A stretch of DNA of 64,000 nt from Capsaspora owczarzaki ATCC 30864 (taxonomy: Eukaryota > Opisthokonta > Filasterea): positions 309,417 to 373,416 of the forward strand of contig NW_011887298.1 of NCBI RefSeq assembly GCF_000151315.2, in the 5' to 3' direction. Positions 4,301-35,214 of the stretch are shown one piece after another. The notes beneath the pieces are model-generated. The model was given only the letters and a program-made list of their open reading frames with translations, did no database searches and was not told the origin of the DNA. A program made the translations under genes and the position numbers. Position 1 is the first letter of the stretch. The number at the start of each line of letters is the position of its first letter.

Positions 4301-5056
4301 CAACCTGTTGAGGTTGTTAGGAAAGCAACGAGGGGGCGAGGTGCAAGGCGTGAAATGAGTGTTTCATCCGACAATCACAACAATTCTCACCAACCCCATT
4401 ATTTACCTTGCCATCGGTCGAGCACGATGCAAAGTACTCGCCGTGCGCATCGATGGAAATGTCGTTGACGGCCTCCGTGTGAGGGGCAAACCGGCTAATC
4501 TCGTTGCCGTAAAAGTCCAAAATGTGAATGGCGCCCCAGTGCGTGCCCAGCGCAAGGAACTTTTCGTGCACGGCGAGGCAACTCGCTGCGTCGTTCTCGA
4601 GCACTTTGAGGACGGACATGCCCAGACGCTGATACTTGAGTTTTGGCTGTCCAACGCGGTACAAAAGTGCAGTTGTTGATGTTGAGATCGCGCAAATTTT
4701 CCAATACAAAATCCAATGGAAATTTCAATCCAATCGGTTACCTCTTCCTCTTCTTCTTCATCTTCCTCTTCGTCGTCTTCGTCGTCGTCTTCATCGTCGT
4801 CTTCATCAGCAGCAGCCCCGGCAGCGGCAGTAGCAGCAGCAGCAGTGGAAGGGGCAGCGGCGTTCGTCGTCGCAGTCAAAGCAGCTGACTGCACTTCGTC
4901 TCCCTCGTCTTCTTCCTCTTCTTCTTCCTCGTCGTCATCGTCTTCTTCATCGTCGTCGTCGTCGTCTTCATCTTCATCTTCATCTTCCGCTGGGTTTTGC
5001 GGAAGTGGATCGCGCGATGGTTGAACGCCAGCGTTCGATGTTGGCTGAACGTTCAT
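1340..5056 (-). CDS. VPS41: Vacuolar sorting protein VPS41 (HOPS subunit)
   Basis: Nine exons, read from high to low coordinate: 4742-5056, 4407-4646, 4149-4304, 3927-4025, 3666-3827, 2150-3578, 1897-2033, 1675-1819, 1340-1566. The joined frame is open for 969 codons (human is about 854). VPS41 is a subunit of the HOPS tether, which binds Rab7/Arl8-type GTPases for late endosome-lysosome fusion. Visible parts: an acidic Ser-free stretch (residues about 25-105, long Glu/Asp runs) directly before PKLKYQRL, where the animal protein also has a shorter acidic stretch; a WD/beta-propeller region (ALGTHWGAIHILDFYGN, SCSTDGKV); a clathrin-heavy-chain-like helical repeat (AIEFAKEQNDEELWEDLI); and a C-terminal RING-like domain (CSICGSYV, then CRHVYHEHCL and CCPLCRNA). 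Divergent with the helicase gene; convergent with MRPL20. Confidence 0.95.
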
Positions 5057-5339
5057 GTTAGTGAGTTCGTTGTAGTAAAAAGCAACAAAAATTGAACAAT
5101 GGTCGATTGTCCTGCTTTGGGAAGCAGAGTGATTTGAGAATGCAAATCAAACGAGTACGATCAACATTTTGGAGCAGAGGGCGGAAGGACGAGAGAGAGA
5201 GACTTACACACACACACTCACTCACACTGAACGCATCGGCATTGAAAAAGTCTCTTTTGTGCTCGCCATCCAAAGCTCTGAAAAATCAGTCTTTTACTTT
5301 GTTGTGTGCTTGGTCGTTGATTTGCAATCAATCATCAGT
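5057..5339. promoter_or_regulatory. Shared divergent promoter region, VPS41 / SKI2 helicase
   Basis: Only 283 bp separate the VPS41 start codon (minus strand) from the helicase start codon (plus strand), so both promoters and both 5' UTRs must lie here. It contains a GA/CA microsatellite near 5190-5225. No TATA box or other core element could be identified with confidence. Confidence 0.6.
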
Positions 5340-16888: not shown

Positions 16889-17959
16889 TTGATGTCTAAG
16901 GTGACGACTAGAGTAGGAACCAGGAAATTGAATCAGAATCAAGCAATGCCCAATAACGAGCAGGGCGTCGATACGACGGCGCCCACTGCGGGCACGTCGA
17001 GCGCAACAAGCGCACCAGCTGAACCAATGAGCGCGCAAGAGATGATGCGAATGATGACTCAAGCGATGGTTTCCTCAATGCAGGAGGTCGTCAAGGAGGC
17101 GATGCGCAAGGGAACCGCTGAGATCGCTGTATCAAGCCATGCGGCCTCCACCACCACGGCAAGCCCCACCACCAGCACTGAACTGTGGAGACATGGCATG
17201 CAGGTGACACCCTTCGATGGGACGCTGTTGGATCTGGAACGTTTTGTCACGGACATCCGACGCAAGCTTGAGTCAGTGACGGCACCCGAGAAGGACAAGG
17301 TCGACTTTGTGCTTGGTCATCTGGGTGTCGCAGCGAGGCGTTACTGTAGCCATGTCAAGTTCGAGACTGCGGAAGCTCTGCTGGAGTACATTATGAATGT
17401 GTATGGCGTCAAGAACAGCAAGAATAACGCACTCAGGGAAATCATCCAAGCGGTGGCGGATCCAAAGATTTCTGCGAGGCACTTCAAGAAGGTCATGCTG
17501 TTGAATGTGCCCAAAGCGGAACTTACGGATGATTTGGTGAGGCGCTTCATTGTGCTGCAAGCGGAAGACAAAGGCGTGCGCGATGTGGCGAAGGAGCTGT
17601 GCAAGGACACCACCGAGATGACGTGGATTGATGCATTGAACGAGTTGGTCGAAAGCATGCCGAGCAAGGTACGAGCGGAGACCAGCACCAGTAGTCAAGC
17701 TCCCAGGCACGTCCAAAAGCCGAATCGAGACAAGAACGGTCATCACGCAGGCAAGAGCAAGGACAAGGACGTCAAGAGCTGCAAGCACTGTGGCAGGACG
17801 AACCACAAGTCGGAGGCATGCTATTCCAAAGGCGGCACTGCGGCTGCGGCTGCGGGCAGTTCCGAGGAGGAGTCTGATGACTCGGACGATGCTCCTGCTC
17901 CCAAGAAGGCTCCCAAGAAGGCTCCCAAGAATGGCCAGGACGGCCAGGGAAAAGCCTGA
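16889..17959 (+). CDS. Gag-like protein of the LTR element
   Basis: A 356-codon frame. The N-terminal 75 residues are Thr/Ala-rich, the middle is a helical capsid-like region (LDLERFVTDIRRKLESV onward), and near residue 295 there is one CCHC zinc knuckle, CKHCGRTNHKS.AC (C-x2-C-x4-H-x4-C), typical of retroelement nucleocapsid. The tail is rich in acidic residues, then Lys/Pro. It is part of the element at 16718-19549. Confidence 0.85.
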   Translation: MMSKVTTRVGTRKLNQNQAMPNNEQGVDTTAPTAGTSSATSAPAEPMSAQEMMRMMTQAMVSSMQEVVKEAMRKGTAEIAVSSHAASTTTASPTTSTELWRHGMQVTPFDGTLLDLERFVTDIRRKLESVTAPEKDKVDFVLGHLGVAARRYCSHVKFETAEALLEYIMNVYGVKNSKNNALREIIQAVADPKISARHFKKVMLLNVPKAELTDDLVRRFIVLQAEDKGVRDVAKELCKDTTEMTWIDALNELVESMPSKVRAETSTSSQAPRHVQKPNRDKNGHHAGKSKDKDVKSCKHCGRTNHKSEACYSKGGTAAAAAGSSEEESDDSDDAPAPKKAPKKAPKNGQDGQGKA

Positions 17960-24018: not shown

Positions 24019-26801
24019 ATGAGGTGGCTCTTCGCAGCGTTGGTCGCGTTTGTGGCGTTGCAGCTACTGTTGCCGTTGATTCAGCCGATGCATCCGCGTG
24101 CGTTTGCAGGTGGCATCATTGCAGCGCACGCAGCCAGCAACGACAATCACATCGATGAGACTGACGCGGCAATGGTGGCGGCGGGTACGACTGGCGGTGG
24201 TCTGGCTGGTGACGCACTGCTCGTGGCGCAAGGCGACGTGGACGGCGACCTCTCGTCCGACGCCTGGTACTTGACGCCGTCGACTGGCGGGAACCTGTCG
24301 ATCGCCATGTGGAATGCCAAGACGGGCGCGTTTGGCGCTCCGACAGTCAGCTGGGCCAACATTGACGTCTGGCAGGCAGTCAACCGAGCGCTGGCGACCA
24401 GACTGCTGCTGCCAGTCAAGGACCAAGCACCGACGACGGATGGCACTGCTGACACTGACCAGCAGCCAACTGGCAATGGCACAGACCCCCGACGGAGGCG
24501 CGATGATGACGGATCCACGGATCCACCGTTGCCGTACACGAGCGCGGCGATGACGGGCGTCGTTCCTGCTGACGTCAATTTCGATGGTAGGCCAGCAACC
24601 TTTGAAGCAGCGTTTTGCGATATATATGTGTGTGTGTGTTTGCGTGTGTCATCGGCACTTTGTTGAACTCGAGCCGAGGTGCGCTTTTTGGGCTGATTTC
24701 TGATTTCACCTTTGATTTGGAATCCGCTGCCAACAACTTGCCATTAGGAATCACCGATGCTGCAATCACCTTCACCTTCACGGGTAGCGACAATGTCGAG
24801 TACCATTCTGTCGTTGTGATGAGGGGCAATGGCCGCTCGCTCGAGATGCCAGCTTCGGCGCCAGCAGCATATGCCAACAACTCGCTCATTTTGTCTCTGG
24901 TGGCTCCGAGCATCTTTGATTGCTCTGGCGATATGGTGCCAGATGTCTTTGGCGTGTCAGCAACGACTCTGCGCTATACGTGCTGGGCCAACGCACGAAC
25001 TGGCCAGTTTGAGCACGCCACAGGCTCGGACTTTCACGGGATGGGTTTGAACACAACCGTGCCACTCGTGATTCAACGAAATCAAGAGGAAGACCCTTCT
25101 GCATGGACTCTTTTGCCTCCGACGTTTGCCGTTGCCGATGTCAGCGGCGATCTCATGGCTGACATTTTGATTGCCGAGGCCATGTTCCGCACAAGCGACC
25201 AAGCCTGGCGTGGGCGACTGCTAGTCGCGCAAAATGTTGGCCGTGGAGCGTATCGTGTGCACCAGTTGTTGGATTTGCCAGTCGGAACTGGTCACATAAC
25301 GTTTGTGGACGTCGATACGGATGGGCGCATTGACATGCTCTTCCCGAAGTGCAACCCGCCCGAATCGTGTGCCAGCTCAAGTGAGATTGTTGTTGCTCGA
25401 AACGCCAATCTGCCCAAGACGGGCCAGTTGTATGGCTTTGATTTGAGCTCGGACAATGTGGCTGGCCATACTTGGACCACAGCGGCGTTTGCGGCAACGT
25501 CAGGCATTTGTCCTTCATGTACCTTTCTACCGTATGCTGTCGTCCATTCACACAACGTCCGTTTGGACGTTCAGCCCAGGCTTCGCGTCGGCGATCTGAA
25601 CTTGGACGGGTTTGTCGATGTGCTCGTAGCCGTGCGGAATCCTACACAAAACCGGGATTCAGCTGTTCTCTTGGTCAATTCCTACATGCACACTTTCTCC
25701 CCATCCTCTTTGGTTGCGGCCTCAAGCCTCTCAGCGGACGACCGTATTCTTGCATGTGCTTTTATGGACCTTGGCTCCAATGCTAACCTAGACATGGTGG
25801 TCTCCAGTGTCTCTCTGACTTCTCAAAACCATCGTATCACGCCCGTTGTGTCTGGGCGCCCCGACGATGTCTATCTGCTGTCAGTGTATATTTCGAACGG
25901 CGTGTGTCCTGATAGCTCGTGTGACGGCAAACTCATTCCTGATGCCAAGGTAGGAGGCAAACTTGTCTCGCATGCCGGTTACTTTGCTTTCTGTGTGTTG
26001 CTCACATTTCTTTGTGGCGTTTTGCCGCCATTGCACCACCAGCCGTACGGAATTTCCACTTATGGCCCATCTGTTTTGTGTACGTTTGCCGATGAGTCGG
26101 GCGACGCTCGAAGTCTGCATAGCGTCCAGCTTTCGCAAAACGGGTTTCAGGCGCTCGACTTGCCGTTTGTCCTGATTGGACTTGGCCGCACTACCAGCTA
26201 TGTTGACACGCTTGATGTCGGTGTCGCATACACTATTGGCGGGGTAAGCGTTCATCCATCCAATATTGTCAAGGACTGCTATATTGTAGTCTTTGGGTAT
26301 CTCGTTTTGCTCATCATCGTGTCTCGTTTTGCTCATCGCGTCTCGCTTATGATATGCAGGCCGCTCCAACTCGTCAGTGGCCTTCCTTGATACCCAATTC
26401 ACAAGTGGTGATTTTCCCATCACCTTTGGACAGTCCAGACAGGTAAAGGAAAAAAAAAGCTCGCTCAGAAGCTTTTGCTTGTGTGTTGGTTGGCGCTCAT
26501 TTCAGTGCCGGAGTGCGTCTGCAGTTGGATCATGGAGCTGTATCTATCTCCCGGAGAAACAATGCTATGGACTGGTGTATCCCTCATCTGCACTTGTGTC
26601 GCATTGGCGGTCGTCATTTGGGGGTTGCGGTACCGTGAAAAGGTGAGGCCAACTGACAGATTGTGGGGGTTTTTTTTTGCTTTTTTGAGTCGACTATTCT
26701 TGCTTGAATGTTCACTGACCAATGTTGGATGCGGGCTACAGCGTCAAGATGAGGTCGAAAAACGACGAACCGCCCATTTATTCCATTTTGGCGATTCTTA
26801 A
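24019..26801 (+). CDS. ITFG1: ITFG1/TIP-like FG-GAP repeat type I membrane protein
   Basis: Exons 24019-24586, 24748-25949, 26043-26243, 26360-26442, 26525-26642 and 26742-26801 give 743 codons (human 612). The N-terminus MRWLFAALVAFVALQLLLPLI is a signal peptide or anchor. FG-GAP/calcium-binding loops recur: DVDGDLSSD, DCSGDMVPD, DVSGDLMAD, DVDTDGRID, DLNLDGFVD. The C-terminal part matches the family: IPNSQVVIFPSP, then a membrane segment (GVSLICTCVALAVVIWGL), a basic stop-transfer (RYREK) and the short cytoplasmic tail ending HLFHFGDS (animal HRFHFDAM). The acceptor of exon 5 was chosen at 26525 because it alone restores the membrane segment. Human TIP is described as a secreted or surface T-cell modulator; the role in a unicell is unknown. 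Confidence 0.92.
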
Positions 26802-26804
26802 CCA

Positions 26805-27010
26805 ACTCCTATCAGGCCCATTTTACTAGTTTTCTCGATTTTGGTTTCTATCTGCACTTGTATTTTCCTTTCAATGAACAAACAATTTGAACACGAGTCT
26901 GCCAATCAAAACCACGAAAGCAACGACGACACCGCCGTCGTCCTACATTTTGCGCAGTTCGTCGGCAGGAATCAAATCCCAGCTGAATGGATGCACAGCA
27001 ACAGAATCCC
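26805..27010 (-). repeat. LRR-gene terminal exon and 3' UTR segment (copy A, resident copy)
   Basis: This segment contains the last exon (26943-26982) and the 3' UTR sequence of the LRR gene, and is repeated in two pieces at 13325-13450 and 13519-13625. On the plus strand it begins only three bases after the ITFG1 stop, so it also serves as the ITFG1 3' UTR. No AATAAA is present on the plus strand between 26802 and 26942. Confidence 0.8.
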
Positions 27011-30000
27011 ATCAGCTTCAAAGGAGAATGCCAACCACAACAACCATAACATCAACAAATCCGACAGTGTCTCACTTACTCGCTTGATTCAAGTCGCAGG
27101 CGACCACCGCTGGCAAGCTCAGCCTGTCGCAGTGCCGTCCAGCCTTGAACCCGAATCCAGGAGGGGTCACAAATGTTGCTCAAGCTAGCAAACCATAACC
27201 TCCAGAGTTAGCAATTGCCGGAATCGGTCGCACGTTCCCTTGCACAGAGCAGCTCGCACTTACATCAGCACACGCAAGGACTTGTTGCAACGGATGGCCG
27301 CTGCAATAGCGATCGCACCTGCATCTTCCACGCGGTTGTCGCCCATGCTGTCATGCAAGATCATTCTTGTGGGGTGAGGACCAAGGAATCAACGGACTGC
27401 ACGCTTTCCTCAACCTCAGTATCGCTTCGCATACAACAACTTGACCAGACCAGTGTTCACCCTGAGCGCTTCTGCAATCGCGATCGCGCCTTCATCGTCA
27501 ATGTTGTTGTCGGAAAGCCTGTCGCCCAACCAAAATCAATCGTCAGTAAAACCTGCACATTGTTCAGTTAACTCTACCAAAAAGCAGAAAGCCTTGCCAC
27601 AGCTCTCCCAGCGTGTTGTTCACTTTGAGCGCCTCAGCAAGGGCCTTGGCTCCCTCCGCTTCGATACCGTTTTGGTACAAACTGTGTCCTTAAAATGAGT
27701 CAAAACTGAAACGCGCTCTTCCAGTCCACACGCCACAAAGCACACTCACTCGAGCTTCGTCACGTTCTTGTTCACTTTGAGCGCAGCCGCAACGGTCAGC
27801 GCACCTTCATTGCCAATGCGCATCTGACTCAGTCTGTATGTCGGTGTTCAAAGCAAACAAAAAAACCGACGACTCGCAGTACTGAGGAAGACTTTCGTGA
27901 CATGCGTCACCAGCAGAAGTTTTCATCTTACGAAACACAGCCAGGTTGGCCAGTGCCAGGGTTGTCTCCATTCTTAATCAGGTCGTAAATGAACTGCTGC
28001 TCAGGAGTCAAGGCTTCATAGAAAGCACCTGCCCCGAAATCGGAGCGTCGGAAGGTAAGCCAATCGTGCATCGCGCTTGGTTGATGACATGGTGGCACTT
28101 ACGTTGATCATCGGAGCGCCAGACAAACGAAAAGACGTAGTTGCCGAGCGAGCGTGCCGTCCGCCGGAATCGCGTCAGTGCCTCAGCAAACACCGAGCCG
28201 AGTGGCTCGTGAGTTGGAGGTGCAGTAGCAGCAAGGGAGGTGTGTTCGGGGTTCCTCAGCATCTTGTGGTCAGAGCTGCCAAAAGAAGCAAGTCGATTGC
28301 CGATTGGAAGCGCCGGCGGTGAGGTAAGTGCTTGGGGTTGAGCAGCAAAATTCCAATGTCGGACAAGACTTTTCCACCTGTTGGAGCCACTAGAAGCGCA
28401 AGAAGGAGACGTGTGAGGACAACCACTCCTCGCAACAACCGGCACCGACATGGGTCTGAGTATAATACCGATCAGGCACAAACCACAACCGCTTGTCTCC
28501 AATCGGCCGGGCAATAAACGCCTTCAGCACCTCCTCGCTGAGCGGGTTTTCCTCCAGGCTGCAATAATTTCAAAAGATGAGTGTTGGCTTATTGGGATCA
28601 AACAGCAGTGAAACTTGATCCACACTCACTTCAAACACCACAGCTTTTGGTGAACTCTCAGAGCGTCCAACAGGCCGGAGACACCCTCTTCCGTGATGTG
28701 GTTCTGGTCCAAGCTGCGATTCAATCACACGATGGGATCCAATGTCGCACGAGGAATGTCATCCAGTCAGAACAGAAACAAACGGAAAATAGGACAGGAT
28801 TATCAACAAGAGCCAAAGCATACCTCATGATGGACAGCGTCGTGAGGTTGATTTTCAGAGCCTCCGCAAGAGCAATTGCGCCCGAATCACCAATCTCGGC
28901 ATCATTCAGTCTATACGTGTAGTTTGTGTAAGTGGCGATCTCGCCCACATCAACCTACAAACGGTGAACGATATCGTACTCGATGCGCCAAAGAGCCGTG
29001 TTTTCTTTCAGACCCTCAGCAATGGCGGCAGCGCCCAAGTCGCCAAGCGGGTTTCCCGACAAACTAAGTGATGATGAGTTGAAAATCAGCGTCGCAGGCC
29101 TAGCTCCAGCTGCAATCTGCGCACTATCCCTTAGCTTACTTCAGGAGGTGGGGCACTTTCAAATGACGCAGAGCTTGTCCAATCGCTTGCGCACCTACAT
29201 GCCCAATCTGGTTGTCGATCAAACTATCAGAGGAAGGATGGCGTGAGCAAACAATTGAGAACAGCAAGAATTCACAGATACTCGAATCAACAACAGCACG
29301 AAACTTGCCGGATTTCAGTCAGAGAAGTGGTCGTCTGAAGGATTGTGGCGACCGAGAGTGCAAGCGTGTCGTCAATGTTCATGTTGGTCATGCTGGTTCG
29401 TGTACAATACAGCACATGTTTTGAGTATCGTCAGTGAAGGACGAAGAATGACAATGCAAGCGAAAATCCAAAATCTCAACGATATCCGCTCCATAATTTT
29501 CATGCTGTACTCCAATTCGGTGAGAGTCTTGTTCACTCCAATGGCCTCAGCCAGGCTGGCCAGGCCAGTGGCAGTGAAGCGAGTGCCCATGAGACTGAAA
29601 CGACAAACAAAGCACAAAAAGTCGTGAGAACAACACAGCGCGATAATATCGACGCGCACAACAACCACAGTCACGCAGTAGGACACGAACTCGAGCTTGG
29701 TTCGGGTCGTGTTGACTTTGAGACCTTCGGCAAACACACGAGCAGTGGCGTCGTCAAACACTCTCAGTCGGGGTCTGAGACACCATTCACATAGTTTGCA
29801 GCTCGTTGAGTGCCAGCCATCAACAACAGTTGCACTTTCCCAACGACCATGAGCACCAAAACGAGGTCGTACGCAAATGTATCGCCTGCTTCCATGAGGC
29901 TCTCAAGCAGCTTGCGTTGCACCGGCGTCAGGTTCTGTCGCACATCTACATGTTTGGAGATCACAAAAAGTAAGTCGACGGCGTGCAATACGAGAATCGA

Positions 30001-32085
30001 GCCCCTTGGTGTCTGTGTGCTCGCACCTTCAGGAATCAGGGGCGACAACTCGGGGCGAAGAGGCGGGTAAATGGTCGCAGGATCTCGTTGCACGTCAATG
30101 AAGAAGCTGATGTCTCCGGCGTTCGGTGAGTGAAAGTGAGATTTCAATATTCGCTTCTGCGCAAAAGGCTGGCCTCACCGATGACCGAATTTTGTTTTCG
30201 CCTCTTGTTCGGAAATGCCAATGATATTGTATGACAGCCTAGAACAGTGTCAGCGCAGCGAAACAAGACGTCCAAAGAGAGCGATGGTCAAGAACAAGGA
30301 GCAAGCACTTGCTTACTCAATATACTTGAGTTCGTTGGATGGAACATTCTCCAGAGCCTTTGAGAAGGCGCGCGCCCCGACTTCAGTGATCTTGTTCTTG
30401 TTCAATCTACAATTGTCACGCGTTAGGGAAGTTTCAACGGTAGGTACCACAGCAAAACCGTCGAACCACTCACTTCAGGCTTGTGAGTGACTTGTTGTGT
30501 TTGAACATATCAGCCAAGGCGATCGCTCCTGCGTCACCAATCTCGTTTTCAGACAAACTGCCGCGATTGTTAGCTCAAAACTAAAAGTCGAGAAACAGCA
30601 AGCCGAGATGTCCAAAAACACCCACACCAGCTCCTTAAGTGCCTTGTTTTGTTTGAGTAAATCAGCCAGGACGATCACTCCTGCGTCACTAATCTCGTTT
30701 TGAAGCAAACTGCCACAATTGTCAGCCCACATCGATTGATAGAAATACAACCAAACATTGCTTGGAAACATGTCACTGCCAAACACTCACATCAAAGATT
30801 TAAGCGTTGGGTGACCACGCAACGCATGGACGAGCGAGATTGTACCGTCGTCCCCAATAGCATTGCAACCAAGGCTGCACAAGAGAGCGATATATTGATT
30901 ATTGATGAGTAATTGGCCTTCGATTACAACGTGTCGTGTCTACTTGCGAAACCTTACTCCAAAAAAGTCAACGTCTTGTTCAGTTTGAGGGCTTCGGCGA
31001 TGGCTTGCACGCCTGCTACACCAAATTCATTGCGTGGCAAACTATCCGTTTTGGTTGCTCTTGATGAGTTTCTGTGTTGCAACCGCCTTCTCGGCCATCC
31101 GGAGGTTTCTTACAAGAGTTGAACGTAGCTGGTCCTGACTTTCAGCATGTCGGCAATCGCACGAGCACTATCGACATCCAGGGCGTTGTCGTTTAGACTA
31201 TCGATACATGCAAGGGGAATGAGTGTATGCTTGGTTTTGGCAAGTGCAACGATCAAGCGAATCGATGAAACTCACCTAAGATCAGTCACGGCTTCAAGGT
31301 CCTTGAGCACCTCCATAAGCTGGACCACTCCAGCGGTTCCCAAATTGTTGTCACCCAGACTGTCGGGTATTGTATGAGTTTGTGTGAGTGATGCGGCACA
31401 ACGTGCAGTTCGCTAGTACGACTCACTGGACACTCGTGATCTCTGGGTTGTGCCACAGCGCTTGGATGATGACGGGCATGTCCTCATCAACAATGTGGCG
31501 TCTAGGAAGACTGTTTCAATGATCAGTGAGCAGAACTGAGTGCTTCCGGCGTGTCGGTCGGTTGATGCTGACAGTGAGTGAATTGGTTACGAGAGCTGGG
31601 TTTCGTCGTTTTTGACTTTCTCGAGCCACTTGAGGTGCCTCTTGTTCATTCTGTTGCGAGCATGACAATCGTCACAAGGAGTTGGCGACGAGTGAGTGAA
31701 GTGTGAGCAAGCGGTCTCGAGACAACAGCGCATTTCATGTTGCGCTCCTCACTTCAAGCAACCAGTGCTTCCGTGGACTTGGGGCCTCTCGACAGGCTCC
31801 TGTGACATGGCTTGATTGATCTGCATCGAGAGAGGAGACAAGGGTGTTTGGGAGGGAAGGGCCCCAAGCACAAGAAGTCAGAACAAAAGTCAAACGACTG
31901 AGAAGCAGGCCAAAGGCGTAGCATCGCTCTGCAACTGCAACAACGATACGACCAAGCTTGCTCATCATCTTTTAATCCGCACTCACAGCCGCGGCTGCTG
32001 CTGCTGAAGGAGCAGAGACGACTTGTAGGTGCATTCCAGCTGCGGCTGCCGCTTGCTGAGCTGCTTCGAATACGCTCAGACTCAT
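26943..32085 (-). CDS. Ribonuclease-inhibitor-type LRR protein, one repeat per exon
   Basis: Thirty exons give an 884-codon frame. In transcript order: 31987-32085, 31753-31820, 31591-31650, 31427-31501, 31276-31359, 31114-31197, 30958-31041, 30791-30874, 30626-30709, 30474-30557, 30317-30406, 30186-30238, 30027-30113, 29873-29945, 29691-29774, 29511-29594, 29309-29392, 29140-29223, 28980-29063, 28824-28910, 28630-28713, 28469-28558, 28103-28389, 27932-28028, 27750-27833, 27598-27681, 27435-27518, 27264-27347, 27080-27184, 26943-26982. Sixteen are exactly 84 nt. Each encodes one 28-residue repeat of the type LxxNxIGDEGAxAIAEALKxNxTLxxL, and all LRR exons split codons at phase 2. Two non-LRR spacers (exons 12-14 and 22-24) end in LTPxQ...GD. 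There is no NACHT, kinase or membrane domain, so a scaffold role is inferred only from the fold. Donors at 29308 and 27597 are GC. Exon 12-13 junctions are the least certain; two separate genes remain possible. Confidence 0.8.
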
Positions 32086-32787
32086 TGGGTCGACCTTTGT
32101 ACTTCAACCAACAGCTCAACTGATCGGGGCTTCGGCAGGCAGATCTAGTTACTGCCGTTTGGCTTTGCGAGGTTTCTGTTTGTTGTTGTTTTCTCAGACA
32201 CTTTACCAAAAAAAACAAAGAGTGGCGGCGTCCTTTCCAAAACGAGGATTACAGTAGGACGATCTCTTTTTTGTCGTGTTTCTGTACTCTTTGCTCATTC
32301 TGTCTGTCTGGAAGACTGGTTGCTTGTGGTTGGTCTTGCTTTGTTTCGCAGTTCTCCTTCTGTTTTTGCTTTGCCAGTCTGTCTGTCTGTCTGCCTTCGT
32401 TTGTTGTCTGAATGTTCGCGTGTCTCTGTCGTCTGACCTTCAATTAACGTTTTTTAGTTTGGAACTCGAGCGTGCATCCATTCAACACGACAAAAGACAA
32501 TCATGACACAAACACATCAGCTACACTGAAAGAAATTGAAGGAAGTCCCGCAGCGTGTTGGCAATTTGGTCTGTTGCGAGAGGTGGACAACGACGCGAGT
32601 TTGTACTGGGTTGGTGAACAGGTGAGGTTGGATGGAGTTGCGCTGAATTTCGACACGAAATGCTCGGGACACAAAATGAAGAAAATGACACAGACAAGGA
32701 ACGAGAAAGTGCAATCCAGCCGAATAAAGTCAAATTCACGTCAAGGGAGTTCATCAAACGAAAAAGAGAAGAGCATTTGCTGCCTGA
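32086..32787. other. Intergenic region between the LRR gene and the BAR-SH3 gene
   Basis: 702 bp, transcribed neighbours both on the minus strand. It must include the LRR promoter and the BAR-SH3 terminator region. On the plus strand it is T/C-rich with a (TCTG)n tract near 32380-32395. No gene is supported. Confidence 0.45.
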
Positions 32788-35214
32788 TCAAAGCATGTAG
32801 GCCTTGCTGGTACGCTCGAGGCGTTCCTAAACGATCACGAAACCAAAGAAAAAATTTGAGAATCTTCCAACCAAACCTGAAGTACAGACAGAGTCCGAAA
32901 CCACCAAGCCCTACCGTAAAGTTGACAGGAAGAACACCCTTCTTTCCATCTTGCCGGACACCGTACGCCCAGCCTTCATCGAGCTCGAGTTCTGGAGGCG
33001 TGTCGACAATCATGATGATGTCACCCTTGCCGAATGTGAGTTCGTCATCCTCCATGCCATCGTAGTGGTGAGTGGCGCGGACCTAGCGTGTTGACAAACA
33101 GTGAATGAGTTCCAACAAAATACCGAGCCAACTGGAAGAAGAAGAAGGGAAAAAAAAAAACACTTAAACACCTTCAAACCCCCCCCCCTCCTCCGCTTAC
33201 CGTGTACAAAACCTTGGGTCCTTGCTTCTTTTTGGCAGTGGCTGGTGAGCTGGCGGCCGGAGCTGCGACGGACGCGGCGGTAGGGGGAAGGACGGGAGCA
33301 GGCTCGGAAGAAGGCTCAGAATCGCCGCTAAACTCAACCGCAAGGTCTTCGAGGCGCTTGGTAATTTCTGCGTCGTCGTCGTTGGCAGCAGACAGCTTGC
33401 GGTTGCCAGCGTTTGCAGTGGCGGCGGCGGCTGCTGCTGCAGTGCCGGACGCAGTGCTTCCGCGACCACTCGAAGGGCTGTTGCCTGACACGTCCCCCAT
33501 GCTGGAGGACGAGTGCAGATTGCTGGTGCTCGGAGCCTTGCCGGCAGGACTCAAAACCGGCGCTGGGGCAGCGTTTGCCGAGCCCGTGGAAGCGCTCTGC
33601 GACACGGCCGAGCTCGATGTCGTGGTGTGGCTGGGAGAGGTTGAGCTGGCAGTGCCGAGGAAGCCTGTGGATCCTGAAAGGCCGGCAACATTGGGGATTG
33701 ACGATGGGAGGTTTTCGATGGCAGCCGCGGCGGGGCTAATGTCCGAGCGCTCGGCGGAAATCTGGTGCAGCTTGCACGACGTGACAGTGCTGGTCTCGTG
33801 GAAGCTAAACATGGCAGAGTACAACTCGTGGCAGACACCCTTGTAGAAGGGGATGCGGGCCTCGTAAAACACGGGCAGATCGTTGTTGAGTTGGGCATTC
33901 AATTCCTCGTAAATTTCCTTGGCCTGAGCGTGCTCCTCCTCGGCCTGCGTGAGCTTGGAATCCGATGCCTTGGACTTGGCCTTGATGCCCTGGAGCGCAT
34001 GACGATAGCGATCGTAGTCAATCAGCTTGCGGTCGCGCTTGGCAATGCGGTTCTTGAGGTCGGGGAACTGGCCGTTCACGTAACCGTTCATCGACTGCGA
34101 AAGCAGCTCGCCTGCGTGCTGCTGGAATTGATGGCACGATCGGACCATGATTGCCGCTTGCTCCTGTGTGTCAGTTGGGTGAATCACACAACAACGTGAG
34201 TTGAGGAAGTTGACGCGAAAAAAAACAAAAAAAAAAACCAGAACAAAAAAGAAAAAAAAAGCGCCAAACCTGGAACTCAGTGGCTCCCGACCAGCCGTCG
34301 TCGAACGCCTCAACCATGGAATCCGCCAGCGATTTGGTTGCGTTCGACATTGCTGTTTTCATCGTGACGATCGTGACGATCCGGCATTGCAGAACAACAA
34401 CAACCAAAAAAAAAAAAAAAAAGAAAGTCAGCGCCAAAGTCAAAAAAAAAAAAAAAAACAAAAAAAAAAAACGAATGATTTTTTTCATATCGTCAGAAAG
34501 AAAGGCATGCGGCGCCGTGGGGAGTCAGCTGGCCGACCGACAAAACTCACCTTGGATGGCCTGCATGAGGGATCGTGCATCCTTCTGCAGCCGCGTGGCG
34601 ACCGCGAGCTGCTTGGTAAAGTTCTTGACGTGTGTCTGGAAGACTTCGTCCACAGTTTCGTCCGCCTTGCCCAGCTTTTGCATGACCTGGTCGACGGGCA
34701 CCCGCCGTGCAACAGCAATGAAAAGCAAGCGCATAAAACAAAGGTGTTCAACAGGTGAGCACTTTGAAAACGCAGTCTGGTCAAAAAGGTCGGTCATCGA
34801 ACGCAATGCAAAGGCAAAGAAAACGAGTTTTCTTTTTTTTTTTTTCTTTTTCGTTTTTTTTTTGTCTGGGTTCCATTGCTTCCGGCTTAGAGCTCAACCC
34901 CTCACAAGCCCCCGAAAAGCACGATATTCCATGTCAATGCATGTCAGTGCACGTCATCCACGTAGTCACAAAGCAACAGCAACGCCATCGCGCAGTGGCA
35001 ACAATGGCACAGCTCAGTAGGACAATGTCACACTGTGTCCGCACATTGATTCTCTCTCTCTCTCTCTCCGTCTTCCCCCCAGAGCCCAGGTCAGGCGGAG
35101 GGAGTGTGCTCGTGGCATGGTCCATCGTGAAGAAGGAAGCAGCAGACAACGTACGCGCTCTTGGGCTCGGCCGGCATTCTTGGCAAGCGTCGACAAGAAA
35201 TCCTTGCCAGACAT
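32788..35214 (-). CDS. Amphiphysin/BIN1-like BAR and SH3 domain protein
   Basis: Exons in transcript order 35155-35214, 34551-34686, 34270-34352, 33201-34163, 32915-33082 and 32788-32826 give 482 codons. BAR domains bend membrane in endocytosis; the SH3 recruits Pro-rich partners such as dynamin. The N-terminus MSGKDFLSTLAKNAGRAQER is the amphipathic helix region of N-BAR proteins. The BAR signature VMQKLGKADETVDE follows, then TRLQKDARSLMQAIQAM and FPDLKNRIAKRDRKLIDYD. A Ser/Ala/Thr-rich linker of about 150 residues leads to a C-terminal SH3 (YDGMEDDELTFGKGDIIMIV, then GVLPVNFTERL) split over three exons. The layout is that of fungal Rvs167/Hob1 and animal BIN1/amphiphysin; orthology within that group cannot be fixed by eye. 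Introns contain long T-runs in sense. Confidence 0.92.

Follow-up and report, generated by a model that had tools for sequence, protein, structure and literature searches.

An LRR gene of Capsaspora owczarzaki with repeat-sized 84-nt phase-2 exons, and the same exon module elsewhere in the genome

Results

Gene structure in the window

The window, a 64,000-nt stretch of Capsaspora owczarzaki DNA, includes an LRR gene on the reverse strand, with an ATG at 32085, a TAG ending at 26943, and 2664 coding nt distributed over 30 exons without internal stops. The features are listed below. The exons come from the gene model, supplemented by exon comparison (exons 9 and 10) and by two further copies of the gene (exons 15, 17 and 26); the whole gene rests on the model and both copies, and the flanking repeat on genome matches.

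26943..32085 (-) LRR gene, 30 exons, 887-aa product
31987..32085 (-) exon 1, 99 nt, start codon, Ala-rich
31753..31820 (-) exon 2, 68 nt
31591..31650 (-) exon 3, 60 nt, runs into first LRR
31427..31510 (-) exon 4, LRR module, 84 nt, phase 2
31276..31359 (-) exon 5, LRR module, 84 nt
31114..31197 (-) exon 6, LRR module, 84 nt
30958..31041 (-) exon 7, LRR module, 84 nt
30791..30874 (-) exon 8, LRR module, 84 nt
30626..30709 (-) exon 9, LRR module, 84 nt, most like exon 10
30474..30557 (-) exon 10, LRR module, 84 nt
30317..30406 (-) exon 11, LRR module, 90 nt
30179..30238 (-) exon 12, partial LRR, 60 nt
30027..30106 (-) exon 13, linker, 80 nt, phase 2 to 1
29873..29945 (-) exon 14, linker, LTPxQ motif, 73 nt, phase 1 to 2
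29691..29774 (-) exon 15, degenerate LRR, 84 nt, weak donor GTTCGT
29511..29594 (-) exon 16, LRR module, 84 nt
29309..29392 (-) exon 17, LRR module, 84 nt, then GC-AG intron
29140..29223 (-) exon 18, LRR module, 84 nt
28980..29063 (-) exon 19, LRR module, 84 nt
28824..28910 (-) exon 20, LRR module, 87 nt
28630..28713 (-) exon 21, LRR module, 84 nt
28469..28558 (-) exon 22, final LRR of block 2, 90 nt
28103..28389 (-) exon 23, non-LRR linker, 287 nt, phase 2 to 1
27932..28028 (-) exon 24, linker, LTPxQ motif, 97 nt, phase 1 to 2
27750..27833 (-) exon 25, LRR module, 84 nt
27598..27681 (-) exon 26, LRR module, 84 nt, then GC-AG intron
27435..27518 (-) exon 27, LRR module, 84 nt
27264..27347 (-) exon 28, LRR module, 84 nt
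27080..27184 (-) exon 29, C-terminal, 105 nt
26943..26982 (-) exon 30, C-terminal, stop codon
32395..32518 (-) 5' flanking repeat (C7:341811-341934)

The LRRs form three blocks separated by linkers, with a single 28-residue repeat per exon. The regular 84-nt exons described in the first-pass annotation are there, with the count revised from 16/30 to 17/30; the off-length LRR exons are one of 87 nt and two of 90 nt, the latter length being found only in exons 11 and 22. Its statement that LRR exon borders split a codon after the second base holds for every intron between two LRR exons (phase 2 in 20/20), and phase 2 is found in 26/29 of all introns. The introns are short, as it had said, but the range of about 70-120 bp needs widening: 28/29 measure 60-120 nt and the remaining one 166 nt. 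The model requires GC-AG introns after exons 17 and 26, and the donor of exon 15 is weak. An Rfam scan of positions 26000-33000 gives 0 matches. At the level of sequence, the predicted gene structure with repeat-sized phase-2 exons is confirmed, and its introns are presumably excised in the cell.

Protein family and domain content

Above the Pfam cut-off, the window protein matches LRR families only (LRR_6, 3.3e-42), and the repeats meet the 28-residue RI-class consensus. The PDB list for the protein includes a ribonuclease-inhibitor-like protein, RI chains and NLRP chains. No ROC-COR is found in the window protein by Pfam above cut-off. We rejected an NLR identity for the gene, as Pfam finds no NACHT in its product. 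Genome-wide there are 13 NACHT matches, four of them over the cut-off, and none of the 13 overlaps any of the LRR matches listed. Among those same listed matches, the nearest over-cut-off NACHT lies about 10.8 kb from an LRR (C13), and the closest of all is a weak match about 1.8 kb from an LRR on the other strand (C9). Depending on the locus, LRR arrays in the genome precede a kinase, a ROC-COR-kinase-RING or an unnamed C-terminal domain, and locus L037 has an LRR-ROC-COR arrangement. T-box domains occur at 4 places in the genome, which points to a holozoan.

Copies of the window gene

The window gene (copy A) has two near-full-length copies elsewhere in the genome, B and C, with nucleotide identities of 95-96%. 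Both retain its splice-site dinucleotides, and also the two GC-AG introns and the weak exon 15 donor. The 2664 coding nt of A and B align without a single indel, while 14/29 introns vary in length between them; dN is 0.021 and dS 0.038, a ratio of 0.56. In copy C the frame is broken in exon 23, and the end of exon 9 resembles exon 10 (a conversion-like patch). We see no exon gain or loss among the three copies, each of which has the same 30 exons. The 5' flanking repeat has five genome matches, each adjoining a copy or a fragment of the window gene.

The 84-nt module rule across the genome

We located LRR repeats elsewhere without using splice sites, and then asked whether AG and GT stand exactly where the borders of an 84-nt phase-2 exon would fall. 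Both dinucleotides are present for 225/256 repeats in 25 sampled loci, repeats that are not independent, as some of the loci are close copies of one another; 24 shifted offsets, used as a control on the same loci, give only 0-4. Because this splice-blind test was made outside the window gene, it excludes a chance origin of the 84-nt phase-2 pattern. For contigs C17-C19 we went through each of the 9 clusters listed, and there 88/99 LRR matches fit the rule. In LRR genes without such introns (L039, L041, L042), a border at the same point is found in 0/9 matches. A search with the family PF13516 gives no match at the default cut-off; at E<=10 it gives at least 150 weak matches, one of them over cut-off, and the 150 matches listed fall into 103 dispersed clusters. 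As a check that the introns are non-coding, we took their lengths modulo 3 (0/1/2), which are 88/43/63 of 194, a skew to 0 that we ascribe to read-through ascertainment. An in-frame stop is present in 158/194 introns.

Module differences and likeness between exons

Near-identical arrays in the genome differ by whole modules. The L054 and L038 arrays differ by 169 nt, which is one exon+intron module, and the L050 and L051 arrays by 819 nt, which is five; outside these differences the pairs are 98% and 100% identical, respectively. Misassembly of the repeats could account for both. As they stand, they uphold the proposal that modules can be gained or lost in frame. The accompanying proposal, growth by exon duplication, is supported by these arrays and has weaker support in the window gene itself, whose copies keep the same 30 exons and whose exons are mostly dissimilar. 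Aligning the 84-nt exons to each other, as the first-pass annotation had suggested, yields one close pair, exons 9 and 10 (76%, with a 92-nt match reaching past the exon), against a mean identity of 45%; adjacent exons are not significantly more alike than other pairs (p=0.125), and window-gene exons are no more alike within LRR blocks (0.450 vs 0.455). On average, exons are not more alike inside one gene either (0.621 within, 0.623 between), and the nearest neighbour of 125 exons lies in the same gene for 24 and in another gene for 101. Intron interiors between modules have near-random identity, 0.29-0.31 within genes.

Variation on the concave face

The window gene and one subfamily have their variation focused on concave residues; the giant-array subfamily does not. 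Concave sites are 105/591 of the total and receive 10/18 of the A-B replacement changes (Fisher p=2.6e-4) and 11/17 of the A-C changes (p=1.5e-5); for B-C the share is not significant (4/11, p=0.11). When all three copies are taken together, setting replacement against synonymous-only codons gives a borderline p=0.051. In the common subfamily, with 121 distinct exons, pN is 0.63-0.69 at positions 2, 3 and 26 and 0.17 off the concave set, and paralogue pairs show the concave focus with p=5e-4. The giant-array subfamily has no concave replacement excess (39 replacement vs 28 synonymous at concave codons; elsewhere 111 vs 79; p=0.57). A positive-selection test gives 29/34, p=0.09 with an assumed neutral share of 0.74. 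Positive selection is thus not secured, and therefore relaxed constraint may explain part of the concave variation.

Discussion

The explanation that we consider probable is that the window holds a module-built RI-type LRR gene belonging to a germline recognition-scaffold set. The gene would encode an RI-type LRR protein in which each 28-residue repeat corresponds to one module, an 84-nt exon with its short phase-2 intron. Every repeat is cut by the junction at the same codon, so that whole repeats can be gained, lost or shuffled in frame through gene conversion or unequal crossing-over. Modules of the same type recur in the genome before a kinase, a ROC-COR-kinase-RING or the unnamed C-terminal domain. 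The scaffold is conserved, and in the most common of the subfamilies sampled, variation centres on the concave recognition face. The likely job of such a set is germline-encoded recognition of microbes, prey or self, and the window gene would be an older, LRR-only member with three copies. We infer a cytosolic location, ligand recognition, and an immune or prey-sensing role.

The arrays could also descend from an ancient duplication of one intron-bounded LRR and now be frozen, serving as structural or housekeeping scaffolds with no recognition role; phase and length would then persist because LRR geometry is constrained. The low average identity of the window exons, with one closely similar pair, fits such a relic, as do the constant exon set of the three copies, the A-B dN and dS values, and the lack of concave excess in the giant-array subfamily. 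We regard it as unlikely, given whole-module differences between near-identical arrays, the concave-face focus of divergence that the window gene and the common subfamily display, and the dispersal of the LRR clusters. Alternative splicing of in-phase modules might instead yield a repertoire from each gene, by analogy with brown-algal ROCO genes and human NLRP3, for which PMC11378527 and PMC6642158 provide precedents. Every 84-nt module is skippable in frame, but the sequence carries no sign of regulated skipping, which leaves this quite unlikely.

That phase 2 recurs across separate LRR gene families, and that intron interiors are near-random between modules, would suit introns that were inserted repeatedly, each time at a preferred position of the repeat, rather than module duplication. 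Exon and intron nevertheless differ together in the 169-nt and 819-nt cases, the likeness of exons 9 and 10 extends past the exon, and LRR genes lacking these introns have no such borders, so that insertion is very improbable. As for a wrong gene model, with a pseudogene or chance splice signals, the two GC donors, the weak donor and the broken frame of copy C speak for it; the 887-codon frame open across 30 exons, the lack of A-B coding indels and the kept splice sites make it extremely unlikely. Under the explanation that we prefer, a recognition scaffold set, one compact protist genome brings together the elements of a recognition repertoire built from modules: the exon module is fixed, near-identical arrays differ by modules, several output domains share the module and, in part of the set, variation is focused on the binding face.

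Repeat-sized LRR exons have precedents in ciliates, in brown algae and among the immune genes of animals, and the regularity of the layout in a unicell, which had been singled out as notable, is not new. According to PMC6564038, Tetrahymena has thousands of LRR genes with tandem 90-bp exons and overwhelmingly phase-2 introns, the exons are often closest to those of other genes, and unequal crossing-over was proposed. The likeness includes a unicell, one exact exon length, phase-2 introns and exons often nearest those of other genes; the difference is 90 bp there versus 84 bp and 28-residue RI-type repeats here, and, set against that source, the kinase, ROC-COR and RING outputs are features of the genome studied here. 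Brown-algal ROCO genes, as described in PMC11378527, have one LRR per 72-bp phase-2 exon with 23-residue repeats; exon shuffling and alternative splicing of LRR exons are reported for them, as is positive selection at concave sites. They share one LRR per phase-2 exon with our genes, and LRR-ROC-COR with L037, but differ in size (72 bp and 23 residues versus 84 nt and 28), and the window gene has no ROC-COR. Most human NOD and NLRC genes have one 28-residue LRR per exon with a fixed border in the beta-sheet, and alternative splicing of LRR exons is reported for NLRP3 (PMC6642158). The likeness is one 28-residue LRR per exon, with borders at a constant point; the difference is the NACHT of NLRs, which the window protein lacks. 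A literature search that did not extend to most subscription journals found no 84-nt LRR exon arrays of any holozoan protist in print.

A holozoan protist case makes it testable whether the one-repeat-per-exon layout of animals is inherited or convergent, and also whether phase 2 is a general preference of LRR genes. More boldly, this unicellular, T-box-bearing relative of animals may draw on a common stock of interchangeable 84-nt LRR modules, perhaps a thousand in all, for its LRRK-like ROC-COR-kinase-RING, receptor-kinase-like and LRR-only proteins. Their recognition faces would be diversified as modules are gained, lost or converted in frame, and the one-repeat-per-exon layout would share its origin with that of NOD/NLRC genes in animals. 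We hold this full picture to be doubtful; if the layout were shared with NOD/NLRC by descent, this immune-receptor gene design would predate animals.

RNH1 has two-repeat exons that alternate between 28 and 29 residues. The window protein resembles it in being LRR-only with RI-type repeats, and the window gene differs in its single 28-residue exons and in its three LRR blocks with linkers.

Exon-intron structure of the window gene

The window gene is an LRR gene on the minus strand, running from 32085 to 26943 in 30 exons with a single open frame of 887 codons; the first automatic chain had 27 exons, already with the run of 84-nt phase-2 exons, and we completed it by hand. In the completed model, an exact length of 84 nt is shared by 17 exons (4-10, 15-19, 21 and 25-28, counted from the 5' end), one more than the first-pass annotation had reported, and three more LRR exons measure 87 or 90 nt. 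As that annotation claimed, the LRR exon borders split a codon after its second base: all 20 introns separating two LRR exons are in phase 2, as are 26 of the 29 introns over the whole gene. It put intron size at about 70-120 bp; the measured range is 67-166 nt (median 79). GC donors occur in two introns, those following exons 17 and 26, and the donor of exon 15 is weak. In the exon translations, the split codon specifies the residue that separates the final leucine of an exon from the initial leucine of the following exon, at the centre of the LxL beta-strand segment. The LRR beta-sheet is established to line the concave face, as PMC11378527 also states.

In the window protein, only LRR families exceed the Pfam cut-offs. 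Its top matches in the PDB comprise a ribonuclease-inhibitor-like protein, 5irm/5irl, RI, LRRC34 and NLRPs; 5irm/5irl are entered in the match list as an uncharacterized protein, which we take to be NOD2. The protein has three LRR blocks with two linkers between them (exons 13-14 and exons 23-24). Because both linkers run phases 2-1-2 and bear an LTPxQ motif, a likeness seen by eye, they suggest an old multi-exon duplication. Elsewhere in the window, an open frame at 16889-17959 resembles by eye the gag part of a retroelement.

The 84-nt module across the genome

A module is one 84-nt exon (one 28-residue LRR) with its short phase-2 intron. In the 27.46-Mb assembly of 29 contigs, a consensus LRR query gives at least 211 matches, 150 candidates out of 1173 having been scored; the 150 matches listed form 103 clusters, with over 6 kb between clusters. 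A repeat profile that ignores splice sites, built from 15 repeats of the window gene, was applied to 17 loci and then to 8 more. These 25 loci are a non-random sample, and they include relatives found by the window protein (L033-L042), the remaining listed clusters on contigs C17-C19 (L043-L049) and loci picked as close copies (L050-L057). The profile finds 256 repeats, 230 with the acceptor AG at the exact position, 242 with the donor GT and 225 with both; at 24 shifted offsets, AG and GT occur jointly in 0-4. Single-site peaks at shifted offsets (AG 144 at +16, GT 108 at +4) are ascribed to conserved codons and the donor motif. Over 194 introns that separate modules, the median length is 82 nt. 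Three loci (L039, L041 and L042) have LRR repeats without module introns, and none of their 9 profile matches has exact sites. For all 9 clusters on C17-C19 among the matches listed, both sites are present in 88/99 repeats, at 8 of the 9 loci. Since a sampled array locus holds about ten modules and there are at least 103 clusters, the genome would by extrapolation contain about a thousand modules.

Copies of the window gene and turnover of modules

Besides the window gene (copy A), the genome contains two near-full-length copies, B at L031 on contig C6 and C at L032 on contig C15, with 95-96% nucleotide identity to A, and a 3' fragment, copy D, within L033. When the exons of A are projected on B and C, the sole exon whose length differs is exon 23 in copy C; it is a net 5 nt shorter and breaks the frame. 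Splice sites at the 29 introns (acceptor AG, donor GT or GC) are kept in all three copies. Because exon lengths and splice sites are kept, this comparison of sequences supports the gene model and indicates that exon number is unchanged since the duplications that gave A, B and C. Between A and B there are 0 coding indels in 2664 nt and length differs in 14 of the 29 introns; substitutions per site are alike in exons (66/2664) and introns (69/2442), with dS = 0.038 and dN = 0.021.

For this gene, support for the proposed growth by exon duplication is weaker: exon number is the same in A, B and C, and exons 9 and 10 are the sole closely similar pair in the gene (76%; the next best pair has 60%). 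In copy C, exon 9 ends in 18 bases unlike those of A and B; 17 of these 18 agree with exon 10 of copy A, the pattern that gene conversion between adjacent modules would leave, in either direction.

The copies are bordered by a repeat about 150 nt long, and each of its five genome matches adjoins a copy or fragment of the gene.

Flanking repeat found by genome search
Window 32395-32518; also beside the copies in L031, L032 and L033: flanking repeat, about 150 nt

The repeat stands on both sides of copy C, and the flanking repeats are perhaps remains of a tandem array. In L033, the 3' fragment (about 4420-5241), which spans the end of exon 27 through exon 30 together with the flanking repeat, sits downstream of a giant LRR array from another subfamily, a possible chimera or remnant.

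In-frame gain and loss of exons, also considered possible at first, is absent among the window-gene copies; other arrays differ by lengths that match whole modules. L054 and L038 (contig C13, 25 kb apart) are equal at 1796/1831 aligned positions, with a single internal gap; its 169 nt correspond to an exon together with its intron. L050 and L051 (contig C8, 21 kb apart, opposite strands) are equal at 1606/1606 aligned positions, with one gap of 819 nt, or five modules, whose two flanks proved exactly identical on checking; one of the five extra L051 modules is frame-disturbed. An assembly error might account for either difference. Mean exon similarity is 0.621 within the same gene versus 0.623 between different genes, and among 12 representative genes, for 101 of 125 exons the nearest relative belongs to a different gene. 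Tetrahymena LRR exons are likewise often nearest to exons of other genes, according to PMC6564038.

L056 and L057, two near-identical arrays (97.8%), face opposite ways and lie close to either end of contig C3, at distances of about 10 and 17 kb; some further arrays also lie near contig starts. A very-large-array subfamily (L040, L044, L046 and L033) has 23-25 repeats detected, or 19 in L033, whose start is cut off, and 90-92% identity where aligned.

Variation on the concave face

For the window-gene copies, the concave set is five positions (25, 26, the split residue, 2 and 3; 105/591 sites). LRR replacements fall in this set in 10/18 cases for A-B (p=2.6e-4), 11/17 for A-C over exons up to 22 (p=1.5e-5) and 4/11 for B-C (p=0.11), three comparisons that share lineage and are non-independent; a union test on A, B and C against synonymous-only codons gives p=0.051. 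For the common subfamily, 121 distinct exons give a pN of 0.63-0.69 at positions 2, 3 and 26, 0.43 at position 25 and 0.17 at positions other than these four. The split residue is variable too (entropy 2.99 bits, 124 junctions). For paralogue pairs, with positions 2, 3, 25 and 26 as the concave set, all nine pairs pooled give p=0.036. Under a subfamily split decided after the totals were seen, replacement/synonymous counts are 29/5 at concave codons versus 43/40 elsewhere for common-subfamily pairs (p=5e-4); giant-array subfamily pairs have 39/28 versus 111/79, no concave excess (p=0.57). Positive selection as such is not established: with a neutral share assumed for the test, p=0.09.

Known systems and output domains

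One-repeat LRR exons are already known in kind, and the 84-nt form is a variant, because precedents exist in Tetrahymena (arrays of 90-bp phase-2 exons; PMC6564038), brown algae (72-bp phase-2 exons with alternative splicing; PMC11378527) and human NOD/NLRC genes (a single 28-residue repeat per exon, the same repeat size as here; PMC6642158). The ciliate and algal cases weaken the initial view, which cited animal precedents only, that this degree of regularity stands out in a unicell. PMC9621439 and PMC6040629, in their available portions, treat TLRs and NLRs of Capsaspora and choanoflagellates and not exon arrays. T-box domains occur at four places in the genome studied here and suggest a holozoan. 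Most likely, window-type arrays are germline-encoded recognition scaffolds that may gain or lose repeats as whole units, and the window gene is an older, LRR-only member of the set; for these arrays we infer the recognition role, as well as splicing and any use of exon skipping.

Several arrays are followed by open frames with candidate output domains. Among the LRR matches listed, none overlaps any of the 13 NACHT matches in the genome.

Open frames downstream of arrays, with their domains
L036, L048: protein kinase domain
L043: kinase and RING
L037 (contig C19): ROC, COR-A, COR-B, kinase, two RING fingers

The predicted L037 product would be LRRK-like with an unusual tail. A recurrent C-terminal domain, with the motif NPLAFxLxPRLATAEDL as judged by eye, comes after L034, L045 and L050 and has no Pfam match in these three copies tested; by eye, the same domain also follows L035 and L051-L053.
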